DNA of 37,272 nt. Origin: Treponemataceae bacterium. Its GTDB lineage: Bacteria; Spirochaetota; Spirochaetia; Treponematales; Treponemataceae. Within the stretch, counting starts at the first letter, position 1. Every line of letters starts with the position of its first letter. Below the pieces are notes generated by a model. It saw nothing but the letters and a program-made list of their open reading frames with translations. It searched no databases and had not been told where the DNA came from. The stretch lies in contig JAILBN010000129.1 in NCBI GenBank assembly GCA_024680915.1, positions 1 through 37,272 on the forward strand, in the 5' to 3' direction. Shown here piece after piece: positions 28,034 through 34,905 of the stretch. The position numbers and the translations under genes were made by a program.

Positions 28034-29017
28034 ATGAAGAAAATCAGTTTACTTATCGTTTTTGTGGCAGCTTTGCTTGTGTTCACCTCATGTTTGAGTG
28101 ATGACGGTGGAGTTCTCTCCGCGAAGAAGACTATAACAATGCCTGCAGAAATAGGTAACATCCCGGAAGGTTCTACACTTGCCATTAACGTAGATCCGAA
28201 TTTTGAGCTTCTTTGGGAAATGGAACCAGAGGAAATAGTAAATTCCCCATTCACGAATGAATACGTTGAGGAAGCTTATGACGAATACTTCTCCATCAAT
28301 GGTGGAGCAACTATTGGTACTATTTATTATTCTCCATTCCGTAGAGGAGGTGTGACACCGGAATTCCTTAAAGAGCAGGCCGAGGCTGTTTTTGAGTATT
28401 ATCTGACGACAGAGAAGGGTGTATACTTCTTACCTGATCCTGAGAACCCAAAGAGTCTTTATTCAACAGCACCTGCAGATTTTGACTACAATACATGGCC
28501 TTATGAGCCTGTGCTTATCGCCGGTGGTGAGACTATTGCACCGAAATTTGTAATGGCAGAAGATCCTGCTGCAGCGGATTATACTCTTGATGTTCACTTC
28601 AAGCTTGAGGCTAAGATTTATCAGGTTATAGATTTTTCACCTGAAGAAAGCTATCTTAAGGATTACTGGGATGAAGACAACAGATACCTGAAACAGAATG
28701 GTGATGTTTTCATGCGTTATGATGTTCTGTCCAATTATACTCTTACCAACAATGCGACCGGTGAGAAGGTCTGTGATATCATGACACCTCAGGGAGATGG
28801 CCATATCAATTCAGATTCACACTATAGTATGTTTGGTAGTGAATTCCTTACGAATACAGAAGATGCCGCTGCCTTCCTTAATTCCTATGATTTCGCAGAC
28901 AAGGCTCTTGATTTTGTGATCGCATCTGTAGAGGGTGTTATTCCCCGCCTGAGAGTCCTTTGGTACTGCAATTCTGATGACATGACGATCGTATATCCGG
29001 AAGTAGCCGCAGAATAA
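28034..29017 (+). CDS. Putative lipoprotein, unknown function
   Basis: 327 residues beginning with a short signal and lipobox LVFTSC (Cys20), then an acidic, aromatic-rich exported domain. It has no transmembrane segment and no domain I can name. It is monocistronic, with GGAGG 4-5 nt before the ATG, a small AGGAC-AAAA-GTCCT hairpin in the leader (28004-28017) and a strong terminator after it. Such a dedicated unit, together with codon usage rich in GAA/GAT/CTT, suggests good expression. Location is probably the periplasmic face of either membrane. Confidence 0.75.
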   Translation: MKKISLLIVFVAALLVFTSCLSDDGGVLSAKKTITMPAEIGNIPEGSTLAINVDPNFELLWEMEPEEIVNSPFTNEYVEEAYDEYFSINGGATIGTIYYSPFRRGGVTPEFLKEQAEAVFEYYLTTEKGVYFLPDPENPKSLYSTAPADFDYNTWPYEPVLIAGGETIAPKFVMAEDPAAADYTLDVHFKLEAKIYQVIDFSPEESYLKDYWDEDNRYLKQNGDVFMRYDVLSNYTLTNNATGEKVCDIMTPQGDGHINSDSHYSMFGSEFLTNTEDAAAFLNSYDFADKALDFVIASVEGVIPRLRVLWYCNSDDMTIVYPEVAAE

Positions 29018-29046
29018 TTGATGTAATGCCCTTTCCGGTATGACAG

Positions 29047-29085
29047 AAGACCGCGTTTCCTTAGTGAGATGCGGTCTTTTTTTTT
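29047..29085 (+). terminator. Rho-independent terminator after the 28034 lipoprotein
   Basis: AAGACCGCGTTTC pairs with GAGATGCGGTCTT over 13 bp (two G-T) around a 6-nt loop, ending in a run of nine T. Confidence 0.85.
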
Positions 29086-29198
29086 ACAATTTTATTTTCC
29101 AACCCTTGCATTTTATGCTGTTTTTTTTATCATAAAGCGAAGTAACACTTTTTTTATATCAGGGTGTTTGAATTTATGAAAACAGGAAACATTGCGCA

Positions 29199-29747
29199 AT
29201 GAAAAAAAAGAAAGATGCGGTGACTTTAGATGATTTTACCGCACTATATGAGAAATATGGACCGATGGTGCTCAGACGCTGCCGGTTTCTGCTTAAAGAT
29301 GAGGAAAAGGCTCTTGATGCAATGCAGGATGTGTTCGTCCGTATCCTTGAGAAGCGGACGACATTATCTTCTGTTTGTTCCAGTCTTTTTTATACGGTTG
29401 CCACCCGTGTCTGCCTTAATAAAATCAGGGCTGATAAAATAAGGTCAGGCCCGTCATTGGAAAACCTCGTAATTGATATTGCTGATAATATTACGGCTAA
29501 TCATGAGGAGGTAGCGGATACATCTGCTCTGCTTGATGTTATTTTTTCGGAGACGAAAGAGGATACAAGAGAGATGGCAGTCCTTCACTACGTGGATGGA
29601 TACACACTTGAGGAGACTGCTGAAAAAATGAATATGTCAGTATCCGGAGTCAGGAAAAGATTATCTGTACTAAGAACAAAGGCCCTTGCCTGTGTGACTA
29701 TGGTAATGGTTCTTTTTTCTGGATTTACGAATATTGGCAGGAGATAG
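29199..29747 (+). CDS. ECF-type RNA polymerase sigma factor with hydrophobic C-terminal tail
   Basis: 182 residues with region 2 (about 10-55: ALYEKYGPMVLRRCRFLL then ALDAMQDVFVRILEKR, the DAMQDVF motif being typical of region 2.2) and region 4 (about 115-160: HYVDGYTLEETAEKMNMSVSGVRKRL helix-turn-helix). It directs polymerase to a small regulon. Unusually, it ends in an about 16-residue hydrophobic stretch (ALACVTMVMVLFSGF, 161-175) then TNIGRR, which could bind membrane or the partner protein. The next gene starts 4 nt after the stop, so the two are made together; that gene product is the likely anti-sigma factor. AGGAAA lies about 12 nt before the ATG, a weak site. Confidence 0.88.
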   Translation: MKKKKDAVTLDDFTALYEKYGPMVLRRCRFLLKDEEKALDAMQDVFVRILEKRTTLSSVCSSLFYTVATRVCLNKIRADKIRSGPSLENLVIDIADNITANHEEVADTSALLDVIFSETKEDTREMAVLHYVDGYTLEETAEKMNMSVSGVRKRLSVLRTKALACVTMVMVLFSGFTNIGRR

Positions 29748-29751
29748 TGCT

Positions 29752-30546
29752 ATGGGGAAAAAAACGAGAATCCTTGAACAAATCAAAGCTGGGGAGTTAT
29801 CCTCCTCCAAATATGCGGAATTTTCAGAAGGTTCAGCTGGTAATCTTTTTCAGGAGCTTTCTGCGCTTGAGAAATCCGACAGGGAAATCCTTGCGGCCTA
29901 TCCGGCTTCAGAAATGCAGGCCGCGGTAGCTGCAAAGCTTGCGGCGTCAAGCTTCAAGGACAGGACGGGCGGCTGGAACCTTATAAGGATAGTCGCCTGT
30001 GCGGCTGTTCTTTGTCTTGCTCTTATGGTGCCCTTCTTTGTGTTGAGGAATACCGGTACCGTCACAAAGGAGGCGCTGGGAGTATCCTTGGAGGCGGCGA
30101 CGGACGAAAGCCGGGCCAAGGGCGCTGGTTCCCGGATGTATCTGTACAAGAAAGTGGGAGACAAGGCTGTGAAGCTTTCCGACAGCGACAGCGTGTCGGA
30201 GGGAGATATAATTCAGATAAGCTATGTATCATCCGGTGCCAAATATGGAGCTATAGTTTCCGTGGATGGTAATGGAGTGGTGACCCAGCATTATCCTGAA
30301 TATGGATATACTTCGGCTCTGCTTGAGACGAACGGAGAAATCCCCCTGGAGTATTCATACCAGCTTGATGATGCACCTTCTTTTGAGCGTTTCCTGCTTA
30401 TAACAGGTGATAAACCTTTTTCAGTTAGTGGTATAGTTGATGCTGTTGATTCTTTTACTAATAAAAATTTGTCCATTAAAGCTGATTTTTCAAAATATCT
30501 TCCGAAAAATACGAAGTTGACGGAACTGCTGCTTTTAAAAAAATAA
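29752..30546 (+). CDS. Single-pass membrane protein with DUF4384-like domain, probable anti-sigma factor
   Basis: 264 residues: a cytoplasmic helical N-terminus (1-70), one transmembrane helix (about 76-98) and a periplasmic C-terminus. The latter (SEGDIIQISYVSSGAKYGA ... VSVDGNGVVTQHYPE ... ERFLLITGDKPF) follows the DUF4384 pattern, a domain often associated with bacterial caspase-like proteins. Topology and coupling to the sigma gene are those of a transmembrane anti-sigma factor, though no classical ZAS zinc motif is seen in the N-terminus. AGGAG lies 8 nt before ATG 29752. It is followed 19 bp later by the caspase gene. The sensor role is inferred. Confidence 0.7.
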   Translation: MGKKTRILEQIKAGELSSSKYAEFSEGSAGNLFQELSALEKSDREILAAYPASEMQAAVAAKLAASSFKDRTGGWNLIRIVACAAVLCLALMVPFFVLRNTGTVTKEALGVSLEAATDESRAKGAGSRMYLYKKVGDKAVKLSDSDSVSEGDIIQISYVSSGAKYGAIVSVDGNGVVTQHYPEYGYTSALLETNGEIPLEYSYQLDDAPSFERFLLITGDKPFSVSGIVDAVDSFTNKNLSIKADFSKYLPKNTKLTELLLLKK

Positions 30547-30565
30547 GGGATTGTAGGAGATGAGC

Positions 30566-32908
30566 ATGAAAACGATAAAAAATATTTCGACTTTGTTGCT
30601 GATTCTTATATTTTGTGCAGAAAGTATTTTTGCTGCCGATTCTTCTTCAAATGGGACTTCCATTGAGCGATATGCCTTATATGTCGCGTCGAACAAGGGT
30701 GGTGAAGACAGGGAGACCCTTAAATACGCGGGAACCGATGCGGAAGGTCTTGCAAAAACAATGATAGAAATCGGGGGTATAAGAAAGCAGAACAGTTTTA
30801 TACTTGTAGATTCTACCCGGGATGAAATTGAAGGAGCTTTCGACAACATTACCTCGATAATAGAACGCAACAGGTACAAGGCGAAGAGAGTGGAATTCAT
30901 CTTCTATTATTCGGGACATTCCGATGAGGAAGCTTTGCTTTTAGGAAATGAGAAGTATGGATATTCTGACTTGAAATCAGATATATCTAAGGTACCCAGC
31001 GATATTCACGTGGTAATGCTTGATTCCTGCTTCTCCGGTAATTTTATCAGGGCAAAGGGCGGTTCCCGTCAGAAATCCTTCCTTATGGACGATGCCTCCG
31101 TTGTACAGGGACATGCCTACCTTTCCTCCAGTTCCGAAAGTGAAAGCTCTCAGGAATCGGACCTTATAGGTGCCTCCTATTTTACGCATTCGCTTATAAC
31201 AGGACTGCGTGGAGCAGCTGACACATCAGGTGACAACAGGGTTTCTCTCAATGAGCTCTATTATTACGCCTTCAATGATACTCTTGCAAGGACAGAGACC
31301 TCAGTCATAGGTCCTCAGCATCCTTCCTTCAATATAACCCTTGTAGGTTCCGGTGACTTGGTGCTTACGGATCTTTCTGATGCTGAGTCTATGATTATCC
31401 TTCCTGCTGAGGCAGAGGGAAGGTATATCGTGAGGACTTTGGACGGAAAGCTTGCCTCCGAGGTGAACAAAATCCGGGGCAGTCAGCTTTCAGTAGCTTT
31501 GCCGGCAGGTTATTACTCTGTGACTGTCGTTACTCCAGTCAGCACGGGGCAGACTAACATCCGCCTTACCGCAGGAAACTCTTTCAGGCTTGCCTCTGAT
31601 GGAATAACACAGATTCCTCTTACAGAAGGCGTTGCCCGTGGAGGGGCTGTGTTGTCTGAAACAGCTGTGGATGCCTCCAGCCTTATGACTGATGCTGCGG
31701 CAGTTTCCGGATTAGCGGCAGGCGAGTTAAGCGTTTCCGGAGCTTCAAGGATATTCGGATATGAGGATTCCTCCTTGGATTCAGAAGAAGAAATTGTTCT
31801 TCAAAGAGCAAGGCGAAATGCTGCAAGGTCTTATGGTGTGAATCTCGGTGATGATTACTATGATGACGATTACGATGACCTGACCTCAGCAACGTCGGCA
31901 AAGGTGGAATATGATCCTATCTCTGTCGCCGTGTTGCCGGGAATTTTCATCCCTGATGAATACGATAACGTCAATTTCGGAATTGGATCTATTTTTATCA
32001 GCAATGAGAATGTTCAGGGATTCCAGATTTCCGGCTTGATAGGAACTGTGAAAAAACAATTGGCTGGTGTTCAGATTTCAGGACTTATGAGTAAACTGAA
32101 CGGGACAGGAAACGGTATTATGATAAGTGGAGCCCTTAATACGGTGAAAAGTGATTTCCGCGGTATTCAATACGCAGGCTTTGGAAATTTCAGCAGTGGC
32201 GATATCCGTGGAACACAAATCGCAGGTTTTATGAACAGAGCCTCCGGTAAACTAAATGGTATGCAGATAGCAGGCTTCCTGAACATCGCTGGTAATGTCC
32301 AGGGCTCACAGATAGGTTTTATAAATATAGCAGATTCCTGTTCCGGAGCCTCAATCGGTGTCTTCAATTTTATAAAGAATGGAATAAACTCAAGCTCCGT
32401 ATTCTGGGAGAATAATGGGATGGGTATTCAGTACCAGGGCGGAACAAAGGCCTTCTTTACGACTTTCCTGGCCAGCTCCATAATTCCAAGCGAGGACGAC
32501 AAATCCTTTGTTTTAGGATATGGAATGGGAACCCAGGTGGGCGGAGGCTTTATCAATTTTGATATAGAACTTTTGGGTAAGTATATTTTTGATCCGGATT
32601 ATGTGCTGCCCAAGCTGGAAAATATAGGACTTTCTGATAACCCTTCCGCTGGGGAAGCCCAAGCTACAGTCATTGAATTAGTGGACGGTTTCCAAAAAAG
32701 ATTCTATCCGTCCGCAAGGATAACAGCCAACATGAGGTTCGGCAGTCATTTCGGGATATATGCATCCTTCAATGCCGACTTAAGGGTATTGGGATGGAAC
32801 GACAAGGTGTTCGACTACTGGGATGATGAATTCAGTCATTATGATTTTCCTGTTAATGGTGCCGATTGTACTGTCAGAACATACTGGACCTTCGGTATAA
32901 AATTCTAA
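30566..32908 (+). CDS. Secreted caspase-family protease fused to surface-repeat/barrel domain
   Basis: 780 residues. A signal peptide (to about residue 24) precedes a C14 caspase-like domain (about 36-265) with the His/Cys dyad His118 in YYSGHSDEE and Cys155 in LDSCFSGNF. A beta-rich segment (about 280-365) and an acidic linker (DDYYDDDYDD) follow. Then come at least six repeats of the form GxQIxGFxN (GVQISGL, GIQYAGFGN, GTQIAGFMN, GMQIAGFLN, GSQIGFIN), as in LA_2272-type spirochaetal surface proteins. The last about 150 residues look like barrel strands and end in Phe, as outer-membrane proteins do. AGGAG is 6 nt before ATG 30566 and abuts the ATG at 30560. Third gene of the sigma-membrane-caspase unit. 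The cleavage target is unknown. Confidence 0.8.
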   Translation: MKTIKNISTLLLILIFCAESIFAADSSSNGTSIERYALYVASNKGGEDRETLKYAGTDAEGLAKTMIEIGGIRKQNSFILVDSTRDEIEGAFDNITSIIERNRYKAKRVEFIFYYSGHSDEEALLLGNEKYGYSDLKSDISKVPSDIHVVMLDSCFSGNFIRAKGGSRQKSFLMDDASVVQGHAYLSSSSESESSQESDLIGASYFTHSLITGLRGAADTSGDNRVSLNELYYYAFNDTLARTETSVIGPQHPSFNITLVGSGDLVLTDLSDAESMIILPAEAEGRYIVRTLDGKLASEVNKIRGSQLSVALPAGYYSVTVVTPVSTGQTNIRLTAGNSFRLASDGITQIPLTEGVARGGAVLSETAVDASSLMTDAAAVSGLAAGELSVSGASRIFGYEDSSLDSEEEIVLQRARRNAARSYGVNLGDDYYDDDYDDLTSATSAKVEYDPISVAVLPGIFIPDEYDNVNFGIGSIFISNENVQGFQISGLIGTVKKQLAGVQISGLMSKLNGTGNGIMISGALNTVKSDFRGIQYAGFGNFSSGDIRGTQIAGFMNRASGKLNGMQIAGFLNIAGNVQGSQIGFINIADSCSGASIGVFNFIKNGINSSSVFWENNGMGIQYQGGTKAFFTTFLASSIIPSEDDKSFVLGYGMGTQVGGGFINFDIELLGKYIFDPDYVLPKLENIGLSDNPSAGEAQATVIELVDGFQKRFYPSARITANMRFGSHFGIYASFNADLRVLGWNDKVFDYWDDEFSHYDFPVNGADCTVRTYWTFGIKF

Positions 32909-32918
32909 TAAAAATAAG

Positions 32919-33025
32919 AGGGGGAAGTCTCCCCCTGCCTCCAGCCTCCTCGACCGCATTCCATGCGGCCTGCGGGGGCTTCCGTCACCCCCTCTCCTAA
33001 GGGGGAGGCCCCCTTAAAATCCCCC
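32919..33025. repeat. Cluster of G/C-run inverted repeats after the caspase gene
   Basis: Four hairpins in about 100 bp: AGGGGGA/TCCCCCT (32919-32936), CCGCA/TGCGG (32954-32968), GGGGG/CCCCC (32974-32992) and AAGGGGG/CCCCCTT (32999-33015), then another C run. No T tract follows the first, so termination is uncertain. The composition is unlike flanking genes and suggests a dispersed intergenic element. Confidence 0.6.
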
Positions 33026-34532: not shown

Positions 34533-34762
34533 GTGCGCTGATATAAGTTTTGTCGTTTTTTGCGCTGCTATTCGTTTTTGTGGACTTTTGCAAGGCTGTG
34601 AGCTTTTGCGGTGTTAGGTGCCGGTATAAGTTTTGTCGCTTTTTGCGCTGCTGTGTGGCTTTTCGTGGCGTTTGGTGCCGGTATGAGTTTTGTCACTTTT
34701 TGCGCTGCTGTGTGGCTTTTCGTGGCGTTTGGTGCCGGTATGAGTTTTGTCACTTTTTGCGG
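34533..34762. repeat. 57-bp minisatellite between the MATE gene and rlmJ
   Basis: Two full near-identical 57-bp units start at 34618 and 34675, a partial third (31 bp) starts at 34732, and a degenerate unit begins at 34533. Because 57 is a multiple of 3, the array is open as 19-residue repeats in two plus frames and one minus frame. The minus-strand version (repeat KLIPAPNATKSHTAAQKVT) is hydrophilic, while the plus versions are Cys/Phe-rich. No frame has a convincing ribosome site, so I treat it as non-coding. The rest of 34493-34905 is T/G-rich, without a gene. Confidence 0.8.
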
Positions 34763-34905
34763 TTTTTCGGCGGCTTTGTGCAGCCTTTCACAGTGCTGTG
34801 TGGCCCTTCGCGGCATTTTCCAGTTTTTTTGCGGACTTTTGAAGTTCTGTGCGGTTTTTTGTTTTTCACGATTTTCCGCACGATAAAATAGGAGATTTAC
34901 TTGGG

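Follow-up and report, generated by a model that had tools for sequence, protein, structure and literature searches.

Regulation of the RseA/DegS/RseP type and the Craspase system are the described arrangements resembled by a three-gene locus (the triad) at positions 29199-32908 of a 37,272-nucleotide stretch of DNA from a Treponemataceae bacterium (assembly GCA_024680915.1, contig JAILBN010000129.1, positions 1-37,272, forward strand), the whole of which is here called the window. The triad encodes an extracytoplasmic function (ECF) sigma factor, a single-pass anti-sigma factor and an exported caspase-family protease; as far as tested, it is a member of neither system. Like systems of the RseA type, it pairs an ECF sigma factor with a single-pass anti-sigma factor that has a helical inner and an outer domain, and it shares with them a candidate first cut near the membrane, an RseP-type (M50) site-2 protease encoded in the genome, and predicted autoregulation. 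By comparison, its candidate site-1 protease is not a PDZ serine protease but an operon-encoded cysteine protease of caspase fold with an outer-membrane domain, and the outer domain of its anti-sigma factor is DUF4384-like. Craspase consists of Cas7-11, the TPR-CHAT protease Csx29, Csx30 and CASP-sigma; the sigma factor, whose motifs occur within its own locus, is proposed to be set free when the inhibitor is cleaved (PMC10028731). The presence of a caspase-clan protease, a sigma inhibitor, an ECF sigma factor and sigma motifs in one locus is also true for the triad, whereas Craspase is cytoplasmic and RNA-guided, and the triad has an exported protease, a membrane-spanning inhibitor and no CRISPR part. 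Membership of Craspase (type III-E) was rejected, there being no Cas7-11 or Csx29 gene in the locus.

Three further groups share single features with the triad. The FecI-FecR-FecA system (PMC11637429) likewise possesses an ECF sigma factor and a membrane anti-sigma factor, and at roughly half of the triad loci of Treponemataceae (L067:1746-4941 and 22 others) the triad is directly followed by a TonB-dependent receptor gene and then by those for ExbB, two ExbD and TonB. The receptor has a match to Plug and a weak one to a CarboxypepD_reg-like domain; unlike in FecIRA, no FecR domain was found in the triad, no signalling domain was reported in the receptor and the caspase is always present. A FecIRA-type system was rejected for the window, where no receptor adjoins the triad; the receptor of another genus (g4) has no homologue in seven genomes of the window's genus at the threshold used, and it is present in other genera. 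Orthocaspases and the metacaspases of plants and protists (C14) have the same fold, dyad and acidic pair for basic P1 residues (PMC6426788), whereas the triad caspase carries an outer-membrane repeat domain at its C-terminus and is obligately linked to an ECF/anti-sigma pair. The nearest reported link between an ECF sigma factor and the caspase clan is ECF54, the neighbours of which include CHAT, subtilase and carboxypeptidase genes and which is proposed to act without an anti-sigma factor (PMC8999054); the triad always has one. A literature search found no description of the triad; the main ECF reclassification (NAR 2021) lay outside that search, and a numbered ECF group with this gene context may already exist.

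We favour, at a probability of roughly 55%, the view that the triad forms a self-regulating module for envelope signalling in Spirochaetota, in which the caspase is the site-1 protease of the anti-sigma factor and the sigma factor drives its own expression. The three genes, all on one strand, are as follows.

29199..29747, + strand: ECF sigma factor (regions 2 and 4), 182 residues, from domain models.
29752..30546, + strand: single-pass anti-sigma factor, 264 residues, best start ATG 29752, from the predicted structure, NCBIfam models in relatives and an invariably adjoining sigma gene.
30560..32908, + strand: exported caspase-family protease with a C-terminal outer-membrane repeat/barrel domain, 782 residues.

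A first, sequence-only reading of the window had recognized the same set (ECF sigma factor, single-pass membrane protein, exported caspase with an intact His/Cys dyad), to which open reading frames, domain matches and the structural model all agree. Its spacing of 4 and 19 nucleotides holds for the first gap; the second is 13 nucleotides, and would be 19 with the second ATG of the caspase gene as its start. The window sigma factor matches Sigma70_r2 (3.7e-9), r4_2 (1.2e-7) and TIGR02937 (4.9e-17), all above cut-off, and possesses regions 2 and 4 only.

That reading had also put forward conserved synteny in spirochaetes as a check, and searches covering Spirochaetota genomes bear it out. Fifty of the 52 Treponemataceae loci examined show the same gene order and orientation, and the remaining two end at a contig edge; here the gaps range from -22 to +42 nucleotides (sigma/anti-sigma) and from -4 to +124 nucleotides (anti-sigma/caspase). 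Profile searches of 195 genomes of the family found the sigma factor in 56 and the anti-sigma factor in 56, with the caspase in the same genomes except at contig breaks. Across the phylum, 59 of 393 genomes, from 38 of 167 genera, encode the anti-sigma factor, and at the distant loci the sigma gene lies directly 5′ of the anti-sigma gene in 40/40 and the caspase gene directly 3′ in 39/40, the exception again being a contig edge. The caspase gene is single copy in the window's genome. In one genome (locus L210, G113:C3:68500-71500) all three genes are fragmentary and the promoter motif remains, so that the module there is decaying as a unit. Since co-expression alone can preserve operons, the caspase and the anti-sigma factor might be mere neighbours with no direct regulatory link; this deserves hardly any credence given the near-absolute co-inheritance of the three genes across many families, despite flanking genes that vary and are not kept across the phylum. 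An origin of the triad on plasmids was tested and rejected, a plasmid search giving no match to the anti-sigma factor and, for the caspase, one weak fragment match in Enterococcus.

Two further elements lie upstream of the sigma gene.

29142..29169, + strand: ECF-type promoter GTAACA-N16-GTGTTT, predicted autoregulatory site, 29 nucleotides before the sigma ATG, motif and spacing as in 45 of 46 loci.
29045..29080, + strand: intrinsic-terminator-like hairpin of 15 pairs followed by a T run, setting the operon apart from the upstream lipoprotein gene.

The motif, GTRACA (or a close variant) followed after 16-17 nucleotides by GTGTT or GTGTC, is found about 55 nucleotides 5′ of the sigma start codon in 45 of 46 loci of the family, versus 0.7% of shuffled upstream sequences, so that the sigma factor very likely drives its own operon. 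At the 40 distant loci the strict form occurs in 14 and the loose form in 19, versus 0.1% and 1.5% of shuffles, respectively. Within the window's own 3.15 Mb genome the pattern has, at the stringency applied, one match, at 29142 (a reversed control pattern has two). Together with the near-perfect synteny and the matches of relatives to NCBIfam anti-sigma models, this promoter argues for the pairing of ECF and anti-sigma factors proposed by the sequence-only reading. GTAACAC/GTGTTAC being an imperfect palindrome, the motif was also considered as a repressor operator; this was set aside, since in one genus the right half changes to TGTCTAA, with GTRACA on the left and the spacing both unaltered.

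The same motif precedes other envelope genes, which supports the envelope theme first suggested for the locus. When mismatches are allowed, the next best site in the window's genome lies 35 nucleotides before a DUF4097 toastrack lipoprotein gene (L243:617-1465, contig C10), and the motif is found 19 to 35 nucleotides before the start of secreted DUF4097 toastrack proteins, either homologues or family members, in three genomes of the genus (this one, L086 and L091) and one of another genus (L121). Such a protein is likely a conserved member of the regulon. In genus g4 the motif stands 5′ of both ExbB and the TonB-dependent receptor gene behind the caspase. Among the Treponemataceae, 23 triad loci have a TonB-dependent receptor nearby downstream, 15 of them with its own motif where shuffles predict 0.2, and ExbB is preceded by a sigma-type motif in 8/22. 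The receptor is present in some genera and was not found in that of the window; the triad is thus what stays constant, and its additional motif-preceded targets differ and are mostly envelope proteins.

This arrangement bears on whether the caspase is part of the switch or only its output. In the latter case the anti-sigma factor itself would sense the envelope, another site-1 protease or a conformational change would free the sigma factor, and the caspase would be a sigma-driven effector acting on other substrates in the envelope or outside. The caspase does stand behind a sigma-type promoter in the same operon, as other motif-preceded envelope genes stand behind theirs, and the M16 peptidase and TonB receptor genes found behind it in some loci would fit protein degradation and uptake. 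Yet no closed locus has an anti-sigma gene of this family without the caspase, while the other motif-preceded genes differ by genus, which argues that the caspase belongs to the switch; the output view moreover leaves the matching R-x-[KR]-G islands described below unexplained, and we consider it rather unlikely. The sequence-only reading, which had made a surface protease the end product of the pathway, is thus probably wrong or incomplete on this point: the shared motif suggests action upstream, and a periplasmic placement is more likely.

The anti-sigma factor has the following parts.

29752..29949, + strand: N-terminal four-helix anti-sigma domain, residues 1-66, no zinc motif, from model helices 3-12, 18-24, 29-49 and 52-66 and NCBIfam models.
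29983..30054, + strand: transmembrane helix, residues 78-101, from predicted structure and hydrophobicity.
30112..30123, + strand: R-A-K-G, residues 121-124, a conserved island in the juxtamembrane linker and candidate cleavage site.
30124..30543, + strand: predicted periplasmic immunoglobulin (Ig)-like beta domain, DUF4384-like, residues 125-264, from the model and orthologue matches.

NCBIfam anti-sigma models gave no match to the window protein itself; among 19 relatives they match the N-terminal domain in 8 and 7, at best with 4.1e-5. Together with the model helices, these matches place it with the four-helix N-terminal domains of class I anti-sigma factors; it would bind and inhibit its cognate sigma factor. 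The outer domain, which is strongly conserved, had been read as DUF4384-like; in the window the match to DUF4384 (PF14326) falls below threshold (13.8 bits versus a curated cut-off of 27, E 0.064), and the assignment is carried by the beta domain in the model and by the orthologues, 24/46 of which match at E up to 0.1 (best 5.6e-5). Foldseek with the anti-sigma model returned generic Ig-like folds only, and PDB sequence searches with the anti-sigma and caspase profiles returned nothing useful.

The caspase is characterized by the following features.

30665..31363, + strand: caspase domain, residues 36-268, fold match to metacaspase 4 (6w8r).
30917..30919, + strand: catalytic His120, invariant in 90/90.
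31028..31030, + strand: catalytic Cys157, invariant in 90/90.
31049..31060, + strand: R-A-K-G, residues 164-167, in the loop that follows the catalytic Cys, candidate site of autoprocessing, from conservation and disorder.
31637..31642, + strand: R360-G361, conserved island with which the barrel linker starts, candidate site of release, basic-Gly in 87/90.
31913..32905, + strand: beta-rich LA_2272/VC2662-type surface-repeat domain, likely an outer-membrane barrel, residues 452-782, from family matches and predicted structure.

The window protein matches Peptidase_C14 (9.2e-7) above cut-off, while NF047832, the model for caspases of the EACC1-associated type, reaches 52.2 bits of the 140 demanded. 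A fold search with residues 32-268 retrieves metacaspases, legumains and caspases, the best being metacaspase 4 (6w8r) at Z 17.8 over 202 residues. Two acidic residues are candidates for the S1 pocket: Asp155, two positions before the Cys (90/90), and Asp60 in the first helix (88/88). In TbMCA2, Asp95 and Asp211 have been described as important for accommodating basic residues (PMC6426788, PMC4357240); Asp60 and Asp155 appear to correspond to these, by motif position rather than by residue-level structural alignment. The conserved acidic pair leads us to expect cleavage after Lys or Arg as the candidate specificity. Related genomes also encode large caspases outside triads (about 300-1000 residues, L198-L209), with DTCNSG active sites and R-G in the loop after the Cys.

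For the C-terminus, the surface-repeat domain of the sequence-only reading is upheld, the LA_2272 and VC2662 models matching 34 and 32 of 42 orthologues, and a barrel fold is likely. Domains that precede such a barrel in the chain are normally periplasmic; for this reason the catalytic domain, more likely periplasmic than surface-exposed, could reach the anti-sigma factor at the inner membrane over its flexible linker.

The evidence that connects the two proteins is the motif they share. In the alignment of 91 anti-sigma sequences R121, K123 and G124 are conserved at 94%, 98% and 97%, whereas the surrounding linker positions are mostly below 35%, and residues 102-123 have a predicted local distance difference test score (pLDDT) below 50. 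The caspase loop carries K-G in 90/91 and R-x-K-G in 79/91 sequences, always nine residues after the catalytic Cys (90/90), and residues 160-182 form a predicted disordered loop (pLDDT <50). In caspases, processing takes place some 14 residues beyond beta4 (PMC4357240), and the R-x-K-G loop falls close to this position. The island at 360-361, most often R-x-R-G, stands in a linker (356-405) that is likewise below 50; only one further conserved basic-Gly pair emerged from the same scan, at R217 within the folded caspase domain. As controls, K-G occurs in the post-Cys loop of 0/12 non-triad caspases of the same genomes, and R-x-K-G precedes the domain in none of about 20 other DUF4384 proteins listed. 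The shared R-x-[KR]-G sites thus suggest a caspase acting upstream, on the anti-sigma factor; with the acidic pair for Lys/Arg, they are why we favour it as the anti-sigma protease and not only as a sigma output.

A motif common to both proteins could also serve docking. The DUF4384-like domain, whose strong conservation would suit this role, would then hold the caspase inactive, with R-x-K-G as a pseudo-substrate in the active site, and dissociation would signal to the sigma factor without cutting. However, Lys at P1 with Gly behind it, in a linker that is disordered, resembles a cleavable site, and a second inhibitory feature was not found, which renders this explanation distinctly improbable.

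Several observations weigh against a caspase that cuts the anti-sigma factor. The same 12 non-triad caspases do carry R-G in the loop, and basic-Gly there is hence not specific to the triad. Covariation of the P3 Arg between anti-sigma factor and caspase is not significant, both being lost in one genome where about 0.6 is expected. R-x-K-G could instead be a structural feature of the anti-sigma beta domain or a binding epitope. The barrel, finally, is missing in some lineages, whose caspases have other C-termini, among them a shorter beta domain and, at two distant triads (L187 and L188), a CsgG-like plus Kelch-like region in place of the repeat domain. The outer-membrane tether may therefore vary among lineages, whereas both the linker motif and the caspase domain are retained.

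With the caspase as the site-1 protease, the pathway would proceed as follows. The N-terminal helical domain of the anti-sigma factor would hold the ECF sigma factor at the inner membrane, while the C-terminal barrel probably anchors the exported caspase in the outer membrane, with the catalytic domain lying in the periplasm on a flexible linker. An envelope signal would activate the caspase, which would mature by cutting between Lys and Gly in its own R-x-K-G loop and perhaps free itself at the R-G of the linker. It would then make the site-1 cut in the anti-sigma factor at the identical R-x-K-G just outside the membrane, after which the cell's RseP-type site-2 protease, together with proteases of the cytoplasm, would release the sigma factor to turn on its own operon, in a positive loop, and other envelope genes. 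Taken in full, as a phylum-wide and self-amplifying envelope response built on a dedicated, outer-membrane-tethered periplasmic caspase that cuts itself and the anti-sigma factor at the same R-x-[KR]-G, before the Gly, this proposal stands at about even odds.

The surroundings of the triad hold further features. The gene upstream (window 28034-29017) encodes a secreted protein with a weak DUF7297 match, and adjoins the triad only in the closest relatives. Behind the caspase gene, window 32905-33025 is GC-rich and intergenic, recurs as a partial copy at two other places in the genome (C20 and C52), and is perhaps a small repeat element. At 34597-34767, between a MATE gene and the next open reading frame, a 57-nucleotide unit is repeated three times in tandem.

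To our knowledge the role of caspase homologues in bacteria is largely open, with few having a known native substrate. Here one locus offers a protease together with a candidate substrate, encoded by the adjoining gene; the site of the cut is predicted, and the promoter can serve as a readout. Cutting of the sigma factor's brake by a caspase would assign a bacterial caspase a function open to testing and, if true, a caspase-type first step would join the textbook routes of ECF sigma release, outside CRISPR. It would also name an envelope response common to much of a phylum in which envelope signalling is poorly known.

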